Assembly: GCA_028276365.1 (NCBI GenBank)
Contig: JAPYWL010000053.1
Coordinates: forward strand, 1-7,575
DNA from: Deltaproteobacteria bacterium
GTDB lineage: Bacteria > DRYD01
DNA: 7,575 nt
Direction of reading: 5' to 3'
Shown: piece after piece, positions 1 through 7,575 of the stretch
Layout: the number at the start of each line of letters is the position of its first letter
Position numbering within the stretch: the first letter of the stretch is position 1
Made by a program: the position numbers and the translations under genes
The notes under the pieces: generated by a model
The model's input: the letters and a program-made list of their open reading frames with translations, nothing else
Databases searched by the model: none
What the model was told of the DNA's origin: nothing

Positions 1-263
1 TTAAATCATATGTTCATCTTTTAGGTGATACTGGATTTTTACTCTCTAATCAATATGTGGAGCGTATTCCGATACCTGCTATAACTTCTGCTAACAAAGG
101 AATAGTAGATAAAATAGTAGATTTAGTAGATAGGATAATACAATTAAAGAATCAGGATATAAATAATGATATTTCTAATTTAGAAAGGGAGATAAATGAA
201 TTAGTATATAAGCTTTATGATTTAACACAAGATGAAATAAAGATAATAGAAGAAAGTAAGTAA
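1..263 (+). CDS. 3' end of a DNA methyltransferase / type IIG-like restriction-modification protein (partial)
   Basis: The reading frame is open from the first complete codon (position 3) to the TAA at 261-263, giving 86 residues, so the gene begins outside the window. The segment runs GDTGFLLSNQYVERIPIP, then a helical tail ending in LVYKLYDLTQDEIKIIEES. This matches my memory of the C-terminus of Eco57I/TaqI-like adenine methyltransferases and type IIG enzymes: a target-recognition domain closing with a 'lPIP' strand, then an amphipathic helix pair ending 'LVYeLYgLteeEI'. The catalytic NPPY motif and any nuclease domain would lie upstream, so modification-only and combined cutting-modifying enzymes cannot be told apart. 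A GTG at 57 could be mistaken for a start, but the family match extends upstream of it. The stop lies 36 bp before the HEPN gene, suggesting co-transcription. The family call is from pattern memory. Confidence 0.78.
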   Translation, partial: KSYVHLLGDTGFLLSNQYVERIPIPAITSANKGIVDKIVDLVDRIIQLKNQDINNDISNLEREINELVYKLYDLTQDEIKIIEESK

Positions 264-285
264 AATTTGGTTTTCATAAATATAT

Positions 286-291
286 AGGGGG
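286..291 (+). promoter_or_regulatory. G-rich ribosome binding site of the HEPN gene
   Basis: AGGGGG lies 8 nt before the ATG at 300 and supports that start. It departs from the usual AGGAGG core. The helicase gene downstream uses a similar AGGGG element, so the two genes share a translation signal style. The minus-strand ATPase gene (GAGGTG) and the coiled-coil gene (AAAGGAG) do not. Confidence 0.6.
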
Positions 292-299
292 TATTAGTA

Positions 300-1685
300 A
301 TGATAAATGAAAATGAAATATTTAGAAATGAATTATTAAAAAATGAAATAATAACTATTGATGGAGAATGGTGGATTCCGGGAGAAAATGAAAAATATAT
401 AGGAAAGTTAAAAATTATACCTAATGTAATGGCTAGCTTAAAGGCTGAATATGAAAAAGAAGAAGATATTGAAAAGAATGTTAATAATAGGAACTCTTAT
501 ACTCAGTATTTTCACCCTATATATATACCTATATTATGGGGTAGAAATTGTTTTGAAGAATTAACATTATTGGGATGTTTAGTAAGAAAAACTGTAGTAA
601 AAGAAGAAGTGGAAAATAAGGAAAAAATTGTAATTGAAGCTAATGTTAGTGGAGTAGTCAGTGGTAAGTATTTAGAAAGTTCTGAAGATTTAAAATTTAA
701 AACTTTAATTTTAGATTATGAATACTATCTAAAAGATGTTGGATTAGGAGAAACATTTGAAGAAATAGAATGGAAAAATTATAAAATATTTCTAAATAAT
801 AAAAATATTAAAATTGACTATAAAAAAGAGCAAAATTTTTTTAATTTTTTTGAGATTTTAGATCATGTTAAAGTTATTTTAAGTTTTTTGGAAAGATATC
901 CTTGTTATCCTAGTAGTATAACAGGTATTACTGTTAATGGTGTAGAAGTAAGGATCTTATATCTATATAATATTGAATATAATAAGGAAAGAATTTTTGC
1001 AAATTTTGGAAGAATTTTAAAAGATAAGATAGTTGTAAAAATTATTAAAACTTTCTTAAATAGTGAGGATTTACATTTTTTGTTTTATATTTATTTCCAA
1101 GTTCTAGAGGAGTTGCATTGTAGAAAATGTAGATCAAATTATAATTATGTTTTTGAACAATTATTTAAAATTATAGAATATTATGTAACGCAAGGAAAAA
1201 AGGCGTATACTATTAAGGAGGTAATAGGAATTTTCCTAACGAAAATACAGGATTATCTTAAACTTTATCATTATTTTATTTTAAATGATATGGATAAACA
1301 GAGGTTTACATTAGAAAGTATTCTTTCAACAAAATATAGTTATTTTATTATGATAGGAAATTTTTCATTGACTGAGGGAGATATTCCTTTTAATAAAGAT
1401 GAATTTATAAATAATGTTGCTAATATAAGAAATTATTTAATTCATTTAAATAAAGAAAAATTGAGTATGTTAAAAAATAATCAAAAGAAAGAGGAAAATA
1501 AGGAAGAATTAGAAGAGTTAAATGCATATGAAGAATTGGTAATGAAAATTTATCCTATAACTTTAAGATTAAGAATATTAGTTGAAATAATTTTAATAAA
1601 TAAGTTATTATTAGAAAAAATTGGGTTAGAGGTATGGAAAATAAGAGAAATAATTGAAAGGTTATTATTGAATTATTCAGGTTAA
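300..1685 (+). CDS. ApeA-like HEPN-domain protein, putative abortive-infection ribonuclease
   Basis: This is a 461-residue soluble protein with no signal peptide or membrane segment. The start is set by AGGGGG 8 nt upstream. The N-terminus has GEWWIPGENEKYIGKL (residues 22-37), a tryptophan-rich strand typical of the ApeA N-terminal domain ('G.WWlP.....i.G.L'), then beta-rich sequence to about residue 220. The C-terminal half (about 230-461) is mostly helical and contains R377-N-Y-L-I-H382, the canonical RNxxxH motif of HEPN RNases. Known for the family: HEPN proteins usually act as metal-independent RNases, and ApeA is an experimentally supported anti-phage HEPN protein. Inferred here: infection sensing through the N-terminal domain and RNA cleavage through the HEPN domain. 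A Lys/Glu-rich insert at about 385-408 follows the motif, and a CxxC (C274, C277) precedes it. It sits between a methyltransferase and a nuclease-helicase, which supports a defence role. The HEPN call is firmer than the ApeA subfamily call. Confidence 0.82.
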   Translation: MINENEIFRNELLKNEIITIDGEWWIPGENEKYIGKLKIIPNVMASLKAEYEKEEDIEKNVNNRNSYTQYFHPIYIPILWGRNCFEELTLLGCLVRKTVVKEEVENKEKIVIEANVSGVVSGKYLESSEDLKFKTLILDYEYYLKDVGLGETFEEIEWKNYKIFLNNKNIKIDYKKEQNFFNFFEILDHVKVILSFLERYPCYPSSITGITVNGVEVRILYLYNIEYNKERIFANFGRILKDKIVVKIIKTFLNSEDLHFLFYIYFQVLEELHCRKCRSNYNYVFEQLFKIIEYYVTQGKKAYTIKEVIGIFLTKIQDYLKLYHYFILNDMDKQRFTLESILSTKYSYFIMIGNFSLTEGDIPFNKDEFINNVANIRNYLIHLNKEKLSMLKNNQKKEENKEELEELNAYEELVMKIYPITLRLRILVEIILINKLLLEKIGLEVWKIREIIERLLLNYSG

Positions 1686-1864
1686 AAATTTAAATATGGA
1701 TATCAGTTAAATTTATTGAGAGTTTTTCTTTTGAAAAAATTAATAAATAACAAATGATTTCAAAGAATAGTACCAAAAATGGTTTATTTGGGAGTAAAAT
1801 AGAGGGTTAATTGATAATTAATAATTTAAAGATAAGGTAAAATTAAAAATAAAAAACTAAAAGT

Positions 1865-1869
1865 AGGGG
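1865..1869 (+). promoter_or_regulatory. Ribosome binding site of the PLD-helicase gene
   Basis: AGGGG is placed 9 nt before the ATG at 1879. It supports this start over the in-frame ATG five codons later (1894), which has no purine-rich element at a suitable distance. It resembles the AGGGGG site of the upstream HEPN gene. Confidence 0.6.
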
Positions 1870-1878
1870 TAAAGATAA

Positions 1879-4800
1879 ATGTTATTAAATAGGATGAATA
1901 ATTTTATAACTAATAATTCAGAAAAAAACTTAAAAAGGCGAATAAATAGGCTTATACTTGATAGCAAAGAACTTAAATTCCTTGTAGGATTCTTCTATTT
2001 CTCTGGACTTAAAGAACTATATGAGGGAATAAAACAAAACCCCAACCTGTTAATAAAAATCTTAGTAGGACTATATGTAGATAAAACTAACTACGGGATT
2101 ATAGAATATGCTGAAAAATCTAATATTAGTTTTGAAGAAAAAATAAACCTACTCATTAACTCAATAAAAAAATCTATTAACACGGAACTATTTGATAATA
2201 AAGATTTCTATGAACAAGCTAACTTCTTTATTAAACTAATTGAAGAAAATAGACTTATAATAAGAAAAACAGATAAACCTAACCACGCTAAACTATACAT
2301 ATTTAAACTTAAAGATAACTCAATAAAAGATGCTATATTTATTACAGGTAGCAGTAACCTAACCCAAGCAGGGCTCACTGAACAACAAGAATTTAACGTA
2401 GAAATAAGCGACTATGGAACCCAGGAAGCTGAAGAATACTTTAATAACCTCTGGGAAAACGCTATAAAATTAACGGAAGATAATATAACTAAAAGAAAAA
2501 TCATTCAAACTATAGAAAACGAAACCTTAATAAAAAAGCTAACTCCTTTTGAAGCTTATACTTTGGTATTAAAAAATTACATTGAAACTTACACACCTAA
2601 GGATACTCAAGATGAAATGATTAAATACATTTTAGAAAAAAACGGATTTAAACTATATAGATATCAAATAGACGCAGTTAAACAAGCACTAAATATAATA
2701 GAAAAAACTAATGGGGTTATAATCGCTGATGTAGTGGGATTAGGTAAGACAATAATCGCTTGTTTAATAGCTAAGCTATTAAATAAAAGAGGGATTATTC
2801 TTTGTCCCCCTGGGATTATGGGAGATGAAAAAATAGAGAGATCCGGTTGGAAATGGTATAAAGAAACTTTTGAACTATATGCTTGGATAGTAGAATCTAT
2901 AGGAAACCTTGATAATCCAGAATTTGTTAAGTCATTGAAAAAACTGAAGAATTTAGAAGTTATAATAGTAGATGAAGCACATAGATTTAGAAACCAGGAC
3001 ACTAAATCATATGAAAACTTAAAGAATTTATGTAGGGATAAAATAGTTATTCTACTTACTGCAACCCCATTTAATAATAAACCCTCTGATATTTTATCTC
3101 TACTTAAATTGTTTATACTACCCAAAAAATCAATAATTACTTTGGAAAGTAATCTTGAATATAAGTTTAATAGGTTTCAGGATCAATTGGAACGTTTAGC
3201 ATATATAGAAAAATACTATAAAGATCCTCAAAAATTAGAAAGTGTAAAACAAAAGTATAAAGCTTTATTTAAAACAGAAGATATAGATTTAAAGAAAGTT
3301 AATTATAGAATAAAGTATATTTCAAAGCAAATAAGGGATATAATAGAGCCGGTAATTATAAGAAGAAATAGATTAGACCTTTTAAAAAATCCATTTTATA
3401 AGGATGAGATTAATGACTTAACAAAAGTAGCTGATCCCCAAGAATGGTTTTTTGAATTAACTCCAGAACAACTTAATTTTTATGAAGAGGTTATAAATTA
3501 CTTTAGATATCCTAATGAAGGGGGATTATTCAAAGGAGCTATTTATAGACCATTTCATTATGAAACAGATTCAAAAGATTTTGAAGATATAGAATATAAT
3601 AACCCTGAAAATTTAGTAAATGAAAATAGAAAACATTATCAACAACAATTTAATTTATATGATTTAATGAGAAGATTACTTGTTAAAAGATTTGAAAGCT
3701 CTTTTGGAGCTTTCCAAAAAAGTATTGAGAATTTTAAAAATATCACTGAAAAATGTCTTGAGTTTATCCAAAAGACAAATAAATTTATCCTTGATAGGGA
3801 ACTCTTAGAAAAAATTTATACCCAAGATATTGAAGAAATAGAAAAAGAATTATTAAAATATTCTGAAAAAATTAGTCAAGGTGAATATCCTAAAAATCAT
3901 AAAGTTTATGATATTAATAAATTCCACAAAAAAGACCAATTTATAAATGATATAAAATCTGATATAAAACTTTTTGAACATATACTTAATAAACTAAAGG
4001 AATTGGATTTAGTTAATAATGATCCTAAATTAAAATGCTTAATTGATAAAATAAAAGAGCTAAGAAAAAAAGAACCTAATAGAAAAATAGTAATATTTTC
4101 TGAATACCTTGATACTGTTAATTACCTAAAAGATCCACTTTTAAAAAATTTTGATAATAGGGTATTGGTAGTTTTAAACGATATAAAAAAAACAAAACTA
4201 GAAGAAATAAATAGTAATTTTGATGCTTCTTATCCTAAAGAAAAACAGGCTAATGATTATGATATATTGCTTTGTACAGATAAACTTTCAGAAGGATTTA
4301 ATTTAAATAGAGCAGGAATAGTTATTAATTATGATATTCCTTGGAATCCTGTCAGAGTTATCCAAAGAGTTGGAAGAATTAATAGGATTGGGAAAAAGGT
4401 TTTTGATGAGATTTATATAGCTAATTTCTTTCCTACTGAAAAGGGAGCAGAATTAGTTAAATCTCGAGAAATTGCTTCTCAAAAAATGTTCTTAATACAT
4501 AACACTCTTGGCGAAGATTCTAAGATATTTGACCCTGATGAAGAACCTTCTCCCTCTAATTTGTATCTCAAAATCAATCAAAATCCAGATAATATAGAAT
4601 CCGAAAGTTTTTATACCAAAATACTTAATGAATTTCAAGAAATAAAAACAAAATATCCTGAGGTAATTGAAAATATTAAAGATTGCCCTTTAAGAGTAAA
4701 AGTAGCTAAGAAATCTGATAAAGATGAACTTTTAGTTTTTATTAGAAAAGCAAAACTTTTTATTAAAAAAGTGGATTATCCCAAGGATAAAGATAATGAA

Positions 4801-5283
4801 AAAAACAGTGAAATCCAAGAAGTTACTCTTGAAGAGATAATAGATAGAATAAGATGTAATTTTGATGAAAAAACTGTTGAATTAAGTAATGAATTTTGGG
4901 ACTATTATGAAGAAATAAAAAACTCAATTGAAAAAGATTTTAATAGAAAACGTTTAAATAATTCTGATTTAAGCTTAGAACAGAAAGCAAGAAATAAAAT
5001 AATGACTTTATTAAAATCTGATATAGAACAATTAAAAGAATATAAAGATTTCTTAAAAACTCTTTTAGAGGATTTAACAGATTATGGGACTTTACCTTAC
5101 TACACTCTAAGAAGAATTGCTAATTTAGAAATCCCTGAAAATAAAAAGAAGATACAAGAAATTATAACAAAACTTGAAGAATTAAAAGATGAATTAGGGG
5201 AAAACTACTTATTAAAAGAAATAGAAAAATTTAAAAATATTCAAAAGGAAATAATAATAGCTATAGAAAATAGAAATATTTAA
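1879..5283 (+). CDS. PLD-family nuclease fused to SNF2-type helicase (restriction-like ATP-dependent nuclease)
   Basis: This 1134-residue protein is complete. Residues 1-200 form a phospholipase D-like nuclease domain: H136-A-K138 is the HxK signature, followed by GSSNLTQAGL (157-166; N160) and E171. Only one HKD is present, so the active site probably forms in a dimer, as in BfiI. Residues about 255-840 are an SF2/SNF2 motor: Q263 (LYRYQ), Walker A G287-L-G-K290-T, D365-E-A-H368, T394-A-T-P397, the SNF2 signature R495-R-N-R-L-D500, motif IV near 736-743, motif V around S804-E-G-F, and motif VI Q829-R-V-G-R833-I-N-R836. About 340 residues separate motifs III and IV, as is common in SNF2 proteins. 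Residues 870-1134 are charged, helical and unassigned. Every catalytic motif looks intact. I infer ATP-driven translocation and cutting of unmodified DNA, with the upstream methyltransferase protecting the host. No separate recognition domain is visible. DrmD/DrmC of DISARM are related in parts but are separate proteins. Confidence 0.9.
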   Translation: MLLNRMNNFITNNSEKNLKRRINRLILDSKELKFLVGFFYFSGLKELYEGIKQNPNLLIKILVGLYVDKTNYGIIEYAEKSNISFEEKINLLINSIKKSINTELFDNKDFYEQANFFIKLIEENRLIIRKTDKPNHAKLYIFKLKDNSIKDAIFITGSSNLTQAGLTEQQEFNVEISDYGTQEAEEYFNNLWENAIKLTEDNITKRKIIQTIENETLIKKLTPFEAYTLVLKNYIETYTPKDTQDEMIKYILEKNGFKLYRYQIDAVKQALNIIEKTNGVIIADVVGLGKTIIACLIAKLLNKRGIILCPPGIMGDEKIERSGWKWYKETFELYAWIVESIGNLDNPEFVKSLKKLKNLEVIIVDEAHRFRNQDTKSYENLKNLCRDKIVILLTATPFNNKPSDILSLLKLFILPKKSIITLESNLEYKFNRFQDQLERLAYIEKYYKDPQKLESVKQKYKALFKTEDIDLKKVNYRIKYISKQIRDIIEPVIIRRNRLDLLKNPFYKDEINDLTKVADPQEWFFELTPEQLNFYEEVINYFRYPNEGGLFKGAIYRPFHYETDSKDFEDIEYNNPENLVNENRKHYQQQFNLYDLMRRLLVKRFESSFGAFQKSIENFKNITEKCLEFIQKTNKFILDRELLEKIYTQDIEEIEKELLKYSEKISQGEYPKNHKVYDINKFHKKDQFINDIKSDIKLFEHILNKLKELDLVNNDPKLKCLIDKIKELRKKEPNRKIVIFSEYLDTVNYLKDPLLKNFDNRVLVVLNDIKKTKLEEINSNFDASYPKEKQANDYDILLCTDKLSEGFNLNRAGIVINYDIPWNPVRVIQRVGRINRIGKKVFDEIYIANFFPTEKGAELVKSREIASQKMFLIHNTLGEDSKIFDPDEEPSPSNLYLKINQNPDNIESESFYTKILNEFQEIKTKYPEVIENIKDCPLRVKVAKKSDKDELLVFIRKAKLFIKKVDYPKDKDNEKNSEIQEVTLEEIIDRIRCNFDEKTVELSNEFWDYYEEIKNSIEKDFNRKRLNNSDLSLEQKARNKIMTLLKSDIEQLKEYKDFLKTLLEDLTDYGTLPYYTLRRIANLEIPENKKKIQEIITKLEELKDELGENYLLKEIEKFKNIQKEIIIAIENRNI

Positions 5284-5459: not shown

Positions 5460-6986
5460 TCATTTAATTTGTTGATATTCAAAATTAGCAATTTTTTTAT
5501 TAGTTTTATCAAATTCTATACCTATTAGATAAATTTTTTCGTAATTTAAATACTTTTTATAATACTCTTTTTGTAGAATTTGATTTATAGAATTACCTTT
5601 TTCTTTTTCATCTTGAATAACTTTAAATTCAAGGATATAAACAATAGAATTATTTACAATAATAGTTAAATCAATTCTACCTTTAGATGTATTGTCTTCT
5701 AATATGATATTAAAACCAGTAGAATATATTAATCCATAAATAGCTGCTTGATATACATACTCATTTTTTAATATTTCATAACTTATTGAACTAAAAAATA
5801 TATTTAGTTGATGTTTTATATCTTCAATATTTTCGTGTAGTATTGCTATTTTTAATTTAGAAGTTCTATCAGTTTGGTATTCATTTGTTATATAAAATAG
5901 AAGTTCTCTATTAAATGATTGTCTTACTTCTTTATTGGGATAATTTAGGATAAAAAATTTCTCATTATCTATCTTCTTTACTTCTTTAATAGTTAAATAA
6001 CCAGTTTGAAACATTAGAGCTTCTATACTTATATACTCTAAATCAAATTTATCCAATATCTCATTAGTATAATAAGCTTTAGTTAAATAGGGTAATTGAT
6101 AGTCTTTGTTTTTTAGTAGTTTAAATAAAAATTCAGTTTTTCCAGTCTCATACCAATAACTATTAAACTCCTTACTATCTAAGAATAAAAGTATATCAAA
6201 GGGGTTATAAAGTGTATCTTGTAGGAAATAGTAACCATTATACCATTCTTTAATTTCATCTAAATTTAGTCCTTGTAAATAGTCTTTAAAATAGAATTCT
6301 AATTCATTTTGAGTATATCCGCAAATGTTTCCATATCTTGGATCCAATGATATGTCTTTTAGTTGATTTAATCCACTAAAAAGAGAAACCTTTGAGAATT
6401 TACTTACCCCTGTTATTAATACAAATCTTATATATTCATCTAATCCTTTTAATACTCCGTAAAAATTTTTTAATGAATCTCTTATTTTCTCTACCTCTGT
6501 TTTATTTTCTATATTATCTAATATAACTTTATCATATTCATCTACTAATATTACTACTTGTTTTTTATAATAATCATAGCATTTTTTTATCAATAAAAAT
6601 AGGTTTCCACTTGCTTTATACTTTTTTTCATACTTATACTTGTAGTTTTCTCCTATTTCTTTTAAAAGTAGTTCCATTTGAGTTTCAAAATCTTCTTCTT
6701 TTGTTATTGCTATTTGAGATAAATCTATTCTTATTACAGGATAGAAATTATTCCAATCCCACTTATCTTCTATATATGTTCCTTTAAATAATTCTTTCCT
6801 ACCTTCAAATAAATATCTTATAGTAGAGATTAATAAAGATTTCCCAAAACGTCTAGGCCTGCTTAAGAAGTAGTATCCTCCACCTTCTGTTATTAACTTA
6901 TATATATACTTAGTTTTATCAACATATATAAAATTCTCTTCCCTTAGTTTTTTGAAATCACTTATTCCTATTGGTAATTTTTTCAT
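5460..6986 (-). CDS. AAA-ATPase-like protein with C-terminal PD-(D/E)XK nuclease domain (DUF1703 type)
   Basis: The 508-residue protein is full length for this family. The start ATG (6986-6984) has GAGGTG 8 nt upstream. Residues 1-280 are the 'AAA-ATPase-like' domain: LPIGISDFKKLREENFIYVDKT (4-25), Walker A R45-R-F-G-K49-S50, Walker B VVILVD149-E150, and the downstream ITGVSKFSKVSLFSGLNQL signature (191-209). The C-terminus has the PD-(D/E)XK nuclease pattern of DUF1703: Y412-Q-A-A-I-Y-G-L-I, G436-R-I-D439-L, then E453-F-K455, and Q469 with a following K-x-Y motif. All expected catalytic residues are present, so the gene looks intact. The family is widespread and often multicopy in Clostridia, Bacteroidetes, Fusobacteria and thermophiles. 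Its cellular role is not settled; defence or mobile-element functions are suggested. It is convergent to the defence genes and divergent from the coiled-coil gene, so it is its own transcription unit. Confidence 0.92.
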   Translation of the reverse strand: MKKLPIGISDFKKLREENFIYVDKTKYIYKLITEGGGYYFLSRPRRFGKSLLISTIRYLFEGRKELFKGTYIEDKWDWNNFYPVIRIDLSQIAITKEEDFETQMELLLKEIGENYKYKYEKKYKASGNLFLLIKKCYDYYKKQVVILVDEYDKVILDNIENKTEVEKIRDSLKNFYGVLKGLDEYIRFVLITGVSKFSKVSLFSGLNQLKDISLDPRYGNICGYTQNELEFYFKDYLQGLNLDEIKEWYNGYYFLQDTLYNPFDILLFLDSKEFNSYWYETGKTEFLFKLLKNKDYQLPYLTKAYYTNEILDKFDLEYISIEALMFQTGYLTIKEVKKIDNEKFFILNYPNKEVRQSFNRELLFYITNEYQTDRTSKLKIAILHENIEDIKHQLNIFFSSISYEILKNEYVYQAAIYGLIYSTGFNIILEDNTSKGRIDLTIIVNNSIVYILEFKVIQDEKEKGNSINQILQKEYYKKYLNYEKIYLIGIEFDKTNKKIANFEYQQIK

Positions 6987-7208: not shown

Positions 7209-7575
7209 ATGAAAGTAGAACAATTAATGGAAAAAGTGCTTCAAGGAGTTAGGAATATAATACTATCAGAGGTAAATACTAAAATAGATCAGTTAAATGA
7301 GGATTTAACTAAAAAAATAGAAAATGTTAATACAAATTTAACACAAAAAATAGATGATGTATATCATAAATTAAATGTAAGGATAGATCACACAAACCAA
7401 AGAATAGATTATCTACAAAATGAATTCAATAAATCTATTAACGAACTTAGAAAAGAACTAAAAACAGATATAGAAAGATTAGATAACAAAATAGAGGAAG
7501 TAAGAAAAGAACTAAAAACAGATATAGAAAAATTAGATAACAAAATAGAAGAAGTAAGAAAAGAATTAAAAAACG
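7209..7575 (+). CDS. Coiled-coil protein with hendecad and 18-residue repeats (5' part, runs off the window)
   Basis: An open frame starts at ATG 7209 behind AAAGGAG and is still open at the window end (122 complete codons). I do not recognise a family. After a short N-terminal helix (MKVEQLMEKVLQGVRNIIL) the sequence is a long, highly charged amphipathic helix. Hydrophobic residues at 26, 29, 33, 37, 40, 44, 48, 51, 55 and 59 follow a 3-4-4 spacing, with isoleucine exactly every 11 residues (26, 37, 48, 59): a hendecad coiled coil. From residue 80 the spacing becomes 4-4-3-4-3, an 18-residue unit (hendecad plus heptad) matching two nearly identical copies at 81-98 and 99-116. There are no cysteines and no membrane segment in the visible part. 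It probably self-associates as a rod. Function is unknown, and it may have a C-terminal domain outside the window. Confidence 0.8.
   Translation, partial: MKVEQLMEKVLQGVRNIILSEVNTKIDQLNEDLTKKIENVNTNLTQKIDDVYHKLNVRIDHTNQRIDYLQNEFNKSINELRKELKTDIERLDNKIEEVRKELKTDIEKLDNKIEEVRKELKN
7449..7575 (+). repeat. 54-bp in-frame tandem repeat
   Basis: Copy 1 is 7449-7502, copy 2 is 7503-7556, and a third begins at 7557 and is cut by the window edge. Copies 1 and 2 differ at 2 of 54 bases, one of them silent (GAG/GAA) and one giving Arg/Lys. The third copy already shows several changes in its first 19 bases. Each unit encodes 18 residues beginning RKELKTDIE and keeps the coiled-coil register, so gain or loss of units would lengthen or shorten the rod without a frameshift. 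Confidence 0.88.

Follow-up and report, generated by a model that had tools for sequence, protein, structure and literature searches.

The window discussed here, a 7,575-bp stretch of deltaproteobacterial DNA that is the complete contig C17 of a metagenome-assembled genome (MAG), carries three genes on the same strand (Table 1). They encode the end of an Eco57I-like methyltransferase, a HEPN protein of the ApeA type and a PLD-SNF2 nuclease-helicase. The first and the last of these probably form a restriction-modification (R-M) core, and the slot between them would hold an exchangeable second-line effector. This slot recurs in other genomes, where it is occupied by interchangeable genes of predicted toxin or abortive type. 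The first-pass annotation had recognized the same three genes, which are confirmed, and had read them as one fixed three-part system. The observation is real and its outline is right, but it was over-read as a fixed machine. The slot content varies and an ApeA gene is found in the slot only in the window's genome, an outcome that the annotation had itself named as refuting, and therefore a fixed three-gene system is rejected; the middle gene is no part of the core but an accessory that can be exchanged. The swapping of slot content is the aspect most worth following.

Such a swap is seen on a sister contig of the same genome, C16. The order of genes there is a 1198-amino acid Eco57I-like methyltransferase, an HTH-ImmA/IrrE gene, a DUF4411 PIN gene and, at the contig end, the first 119 codons of PLD-SNF2. 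The HTH-ImmA/IrrE protein matches Peptidase_M78 (2.7e-16) and PADLOC RmrA (1.3e-22), and the PIN protein matches DUF4411 (5.7e-32). C16 and C17 share near-identical flanks on both sides of the slot (Table 1), but have no similarity between the flanks, nor in window positions 1–66, which encode the end of the target domain (TRD). By inspection, the translation of positions 1–66 resembles the methyltransferase of the close relative G001, and the C16 version resembles that of a second relative, G002. Thus the two alleles differ in target-domain end and in effector, and slot content has been exchanged between near-identical flanks.

We lean slightly towards the explanation that C16 and C17 are alleles of different strains that were binned together, or that C17 is a contaminant, and the exchange would then be between strains and not within one genome. 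The ends of both contigs lie within or next to the common flanks, and the source MAG (1.59 Mb) consists of 124 contigs and is 87% complete with 2.8% contamination. However, with flanks that are 97–98% identical the two contigs belong to one close lineage in any case, and the swap still counts as an allelic difference.

A scan of genome contigs confirmed 564 PLD-SNF2 relatives, of which 80 were kept, and relatives from whole genomes were added; 24 of 386 whole genomes carry the system. The kept relatives are from Planctomycetota, Bacteroidota, Chloroflexota, Patescibacteria, Deltaproteobacteria and others. Together these sources yield 83 linked methyltransferase/PLD-SNF2 pairs from many phyla, which are mostly on the same strand and frequently overlap by one base; the linkage of these two genes was a part of the original proposal that holds up. 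Loci that lack a pair mostly stop at a contig edge, with L102 as a possible true exception. This near-universal linkage indicates that methyltransferase and PLD-SNF2 constitute the core, in which methyltransferase, nuclease and SF2 motor are linked as in ATP-dependent R-M systems in general. Slots of at least 600 bp are present in 22 of the 27 pairs where the methyltransferase gene comes first, as in the window, compared with six of 43 pairs in the reverse order (Fisher 2e-8), although the loci were picked by similarity and are phylogenetically non-independent, which applies also to the recurrence figures below. In 33 of the 43 reverse-order pairs the genes are within 120 bp of each other.

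The genes found in slots are listed in Table 1. Enrichment was gauged by the recurrence of homologues among open reading frames (ORFs) of at least 120 amino acids. Homologues of slot genes are ~16 times denser in other slots than outside them (0.37 vs 0.023 per kb), and represent 22 of 79 slot ORFs vs 17 of 892 outside ORFs (odds ratio 20). Many of the outside matches are located 3′ of a methyltransferase gene. The expectation that a HEPN gene would recur in the slot is borne out in part, as the DUF3644, RiboL-PSP and HepT-like families are found elsewhere, but none of the other surveyed loci had an ApeA protein in its slot. In L059, genes for an MqsA/Panacea-type antitoxin and a HepT-like HEPN protein are stacked behind an ImmA/PIN pair, upstream of SNF2 (positions 2490–4691); several effectors thus lie within one slot.

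Table 1. Features of the window, of sister contig C16 and of slots in other loci
Feature	Position or locus	Strand	Basis or remark
Methyltransferase C-terminal tail, Eco57I/type IIG-like adenine methyltransferase, 86 codons	3..263	+	PADLOC REase_MTase_IIG; remainder beyond contig end
Left flank common to C16, 97.0% identical	67..265	+	Ends just past methyltransferase stop
Divergent ApeA-family HEPN protein, 461 aa, predicted RNase/abortive effector	300..1685	+	ORF, Pfam, ApeA HMM
HEPN catalytic motif R377-N-Y-L-I-H382 (RNx3H)	1428..1445	+	Aligned to RNylvH block of ApeA HMM
Right flank common to C16, 97.8% identical	1827..2236	+	SNF2 leader and first 119 codons; C16 ends there
PLD-SNF2 protein, 1134 aa: N-terminal HKD nuclease and SF2/SNF2 motor; predicted ATP-dependent DNA-cutting subunit	1879..5283	+	Pfam, alignment
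PLD catalytic H136-x-K138, then conserved GSSN	2284..2292	+	Invariant in homologue alignment
Walker A lysine K290 (ADVVGLGKT)	2746..2748	+	Invariant in homologue alignment
Walker B DEAH, residues 365-368	2971..2982	+	Invariant in homologue alignment
AAA-ATPase_like/PDDEXK_9 gene	5460-6986	-	PF09820/PF08011
Coiled-coil protein, start only	from 7200	+	
M78+DUF4411	C16 slot; also L059, L070		L059, L070 both without visible methyltransferase
AbiEii and partner in slot	L064, L089		
Schlafen/AlbA_2 in slot	L053, L060, L066, L111, L116		Also immediately upstream of SNF2 in L071, L084
Fic in slot	L090, L103		
HipA in slot	L097		
RhuM in slot	L069, L113		
Bro-N in slot	L072, L091		
DUF4268 in slot	L073, L093		
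KAP NTPase in slot	L093		
AAA_21+RloB in slot	L105		
DUF4143 ATPase in slot	L094, L150		Homologue in L075
RHH+PIN in slot	L146		
DUF3644 HEPN in slot	L116		4.3e-41
RiboL-PSP-HEPN in slot	L072		4.4e-5, below cutoff
HepT-like HEPN in slot	L059		0.0058, below cutoff; methyltransferase off-contig
Degraded ImmA/PIN cassettes 3′ of methyltransferase	L164 5116-6578; L165 648-1760		Close relatives G001/G002

The middle gene of the window begins 36 bp after the methyltransferase gene. Its Pfam HEPN_Apea match is below cutoff (19.5 vs 24.4 bits, E 0.0014). A non-circular test employed a hidden Markov model (HMM) made from five other ApeA proteins (L117, L127–L130), with the window protein left out. Among 4004 sequences the window protein ranks first (E 1.6e-5), and it aligns in three collinear blocks, GEWWxP near the N-terminus, WGR..TLL, and RNYLIH with R377 and H382; the N-terminal GxWWLP and WGR..TL motifs are collinear and within residues 20–140. 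By HMMER's estimate, the composition bias in this score is large (17.8 against 21.7 bits). Shuffled sequences are the control for this effect, and none of 200 matched. Rank, collinear blocks and shuffle control thus characterize the product, from its sequence, as a HEPN protein of the ApeA type, complete in length but highly divergent, and the label given at first stands. No homologues are detected at the phmmer/tblastn level in the 386 genomes, plasmids and viral contigs, and a PDB sequence search gives no match. An ApeA scan of viral sequences finds one relative. The AlphaFold model, made from the single sequence without homologues, has a pLDDT of 36. In system-carrying genomes, HEPN_Apea exceeds the Pfam cutoff in a single remote copy (L117), situated elsewhere in the genome of L072. 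In an unrelated genome (G262), an ApeA gene is found immediately behind a DNA methyltransferase-like gene (L127, positions 1438–3399).

The PLD-SNF2 gene is intact. Pfam finds PLD domains (PF13091, 2.6e-9; PF09565, 3.7e-9) fused to SNF2/Helicase_C (8.5e-17). Five homologues of 41–52% identity all retain, unchanged, H136, K138, K290, D365–H368 and most of the QRVGRINR motif, in agreement with the nuclease-helicase assignment made initially.

Of the methyltransferase, the window has only the last 86 codons, since the contig begins at window base 1 and the assembly breaks off there. The name given to this first gene therefore holds for its 3′ end, where the tail matches the last 80 positions of the PADLOC REase_MTase_IIG model (8.8e-26), and rests on that resemblance to type IIG enzymes. 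A full-length methyltransferase is seen only on C16, with matches to Eco57I (PF07669, 1.4e-42) and TaqI_C (1.5e-16). Homologues conserve the GSGAFPMG and NPPY motifs, and the TRD region is variable. In three loci (L075, 2825–7731; L115, 4892–9975; L113, 4240–8803) a target-domain tail on the opposite strand and a serine recombinase gene lie behind the methyltransferase gene. There are inverted repeats at 5781–5835/7034–7088 of L075 (85%) and 8056–8085/8845–8874 of L115 (93%). The repeats point to phase variation in this R-M family by way of an invertible switch of specificity.

Modification, DNA cutting, RNase activity and an abortive outcome are assigned here from protein families. The methyltransferase, with its hypervariable C-terminal target domain, would mark host sites, and PLD-SNF2 would move along unmodified DNA and cut it. 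The slot gene would provide an exchangeable second line, an ApeA-type HEPN protein in the window and a RosmerTA-like ImmA/IrrE and PIN pair in C16. Most likely, the HEPN protein would sense by means of its own N-terminal domain, cut RNA and halt growth when restriction fails.

Several points weigh against this reading. Besides the non-independence of the loci and the confinement of slot-borne ApeA to one genome, 38 of 70 pairs are without a slot (gap of 120 bp or less), and therefore the core can do without the accessory gene. In G001 the SNF2 gene comes first, and the methyltransferase gene after it is followed by the two pieces of a split ImmA gene and by a shortened PIN gene. The SNF2 and methyltransferase genes of G002 have the same order, with an N run at their junction, and the ImmA gene behind them is not followed by a PIN gene. 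Decay of the ImmA/PIN cassette beside the core argues for an add-on and against tight coupling. In addition, the methyltransferase N-terminus may hold a nuclease, and the division of labour could then differ.

This raises the question of whether slot genes are passengers. It is a real possibility, though on balance a doubtful one, that the site after the target domain is prone to recombination, so that defence genes that are selfish or of general use insert there, the HEPN gene having no functional tie to restriction. The sharp identity boundaries at 67/265 and 1827 fit such a site, as do the resolvases and apparently invertible target domains of some slots, the cassette decay in G001 and G002 and a weak transposase-like match in one slot. 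However, the families found in slots are strongly non-random and same-strand packing is usual; non-random families with operon-like packing favour some benefit of co-location.

A guard of the PrrC kind seems rather unlikely. The HEPN protein would be bound and silenced by the methyltransferase or the PLD-SNF2 complex and freed when a phage blocks restriction, which would make the three genes one coupled system, the view taken in the first-pass annotation. The position of the HEPN gene inside the operon, close behind the methyltransferase gene, and the recruitment of several HEPN families to the slot are in its favour, and there is strong precedent, with an explicit proposal in the literature (PMC3710099, PMC3506569). 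Yet slot occupants are structurally unrelated and include complete toxin-antitoxin pairs (AbiE, HipBA, M78+PIN, RHH+PIN), which bring their own antitoxin, so that the core would not have to silence them. Many cores lack a slot gene, and in ApeA the N-terminal domain could plausibly act as a sensor by itself. Autonomous effectors fit better with the toxin-antitoxin pairs, with the wide range of occupants and with the decay of the cassette. We consider it quite improbable that target domain and effector are exchanged jointly as a cassette between strains, with diverse toxins all gated by the state of the core.

The principle of HEPN genes inside R-M operons, ApeA included, has been in print since 2013 and is not new. 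HEPN RNases, among them the ApeA family, were found embedded in R-M operons and proposed as a second line of defence (Makarova 2012, PMC3506569; Anantharaman 2013, PMC3710099). The same papers list ApeA within R-M operons of epsilonproteobacteria, and describe toxins in R-M loci that replace one another, probably as a back-up with a PrrC-like role. A 2026 BREX survey catalogues HEPN, PIN and Schlafen auxiliary effectors in BREX/BR loci (PMC12839542). The loci of the two earlier papers are of type I, type III and DUF499 type, whereas the window core is a PLD-SNF2 and Eco57I-like pair; complete toxin-antitoxin pairs are also found in the slots of this family.

PLD-SNF2 and methyltransferase each resemble parts of Type-2 BR, BREX or DISARM. 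Type-2 BR has an HKD/PLD-Swi2/Snf2 helicase fusion and an N6-methyltransferase, there with DUF499 (PMC12839542). The DUF499 ATPase (PF04465) is absent from the window's genome (87% complete) and, overall, from 49 of 53 system-carrying genomes (including G000, G001, G002 and G023). PglZ (PF08665) and DrmB/MZB (PF09369) are absent from the window's genome and three relatives tested. Because these markers are missing, membership in Type-2 BR, BREX and DISARM is rejected. A search for DUF3780 (PF12635) gave no match, and controls gave none either; against the DISARM DrmD model PLD-SNF2 scores 144 bits, with a cutoff of 610.

In CglI/NgoAVII and SauUSI a PLD domain and an SF2 motor make an ATP-dependent nuclease (PMC5737866, PMC4267653, PMC7913695). 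The window system shares with CglI/NgoAVII the combination of PLD nuclease, SF2 motor and methyltransferase, but CglI/NgoAVII divides nuclease and motor between two proteins, R (PLD+B3) and H (DEAD-Z1) (PMC5737866, PMC4267653), whereas they are fused in the window, where Pfam finds no B3 domain in the proteins. SauUSI, of type IV, is likewise a single-chain PLD-SF2 protein, but its terminal SRA domain reads 5-methylcytosine and it cuts methylated DNA, whereas PLD-SNF2 has a linked methyltransferase partner (PMC7913695). With the ApeA defence protein (Gao 2020, summarised in PMC7699616 and PMC10952713) the middle gene product shares an N-terminal GxWWLP domain and a C-terminal HEPN RNx3H motif, but it is very divergent from other ApeA proteins and located in an R-M operon. 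The C16 pair resembles RosmerTA (PMC10440598) in having an HTH-ImmA/IrrE antitoxin and a PIN/DUF4411 protein, and differs in being embedded in an R-M locus. PrrC/PrrI also has a HEPN RNase inside an R-M locus, but of a different R-M type; the 461-amino acid window protein has no match to an ABC-ATPase domain. No paper on a DUF499-free PLD-SNF2/Eco57I pair with a slot was found in open-access text. What looks new is a core without DUF499, PglZ or DrmB, together with a slot swapped between near-identical flanks.

Downstream of the three genes, the opposite-strand AAA-ATPase_like/PDDEXK_9 gene has at least 28 further copies in the same 1.6-Mb genome (over 1.1 kb, 67–82% DNA identity), some of them tandem, e.g. 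five on C73 and three on C48. The final 127 bp of the window (7449–7575) match exactly the first 127 bp of contig C9. This is probably an assembly k-mer overlap, with C9 continuing the window, and the right end would also be an assembly-graph edge. Promoter and terminator matches in the window are at chance level, and Rfam and tRNA scans give no match.

The PLD-SNF2/Eco57I-like system is widespread, little described and apparently uncharacterised. If its core restricts DNA and the slot effectors back it up, the family would represent a natural experiment in which the same core is combined with about a dozen interchangeable toxin types, and the hypothesis that immunity and suicide are coupled would become directly testable through cassette swaps. 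If there is no coupling, R-M loci would be landing pads for abortive genes.

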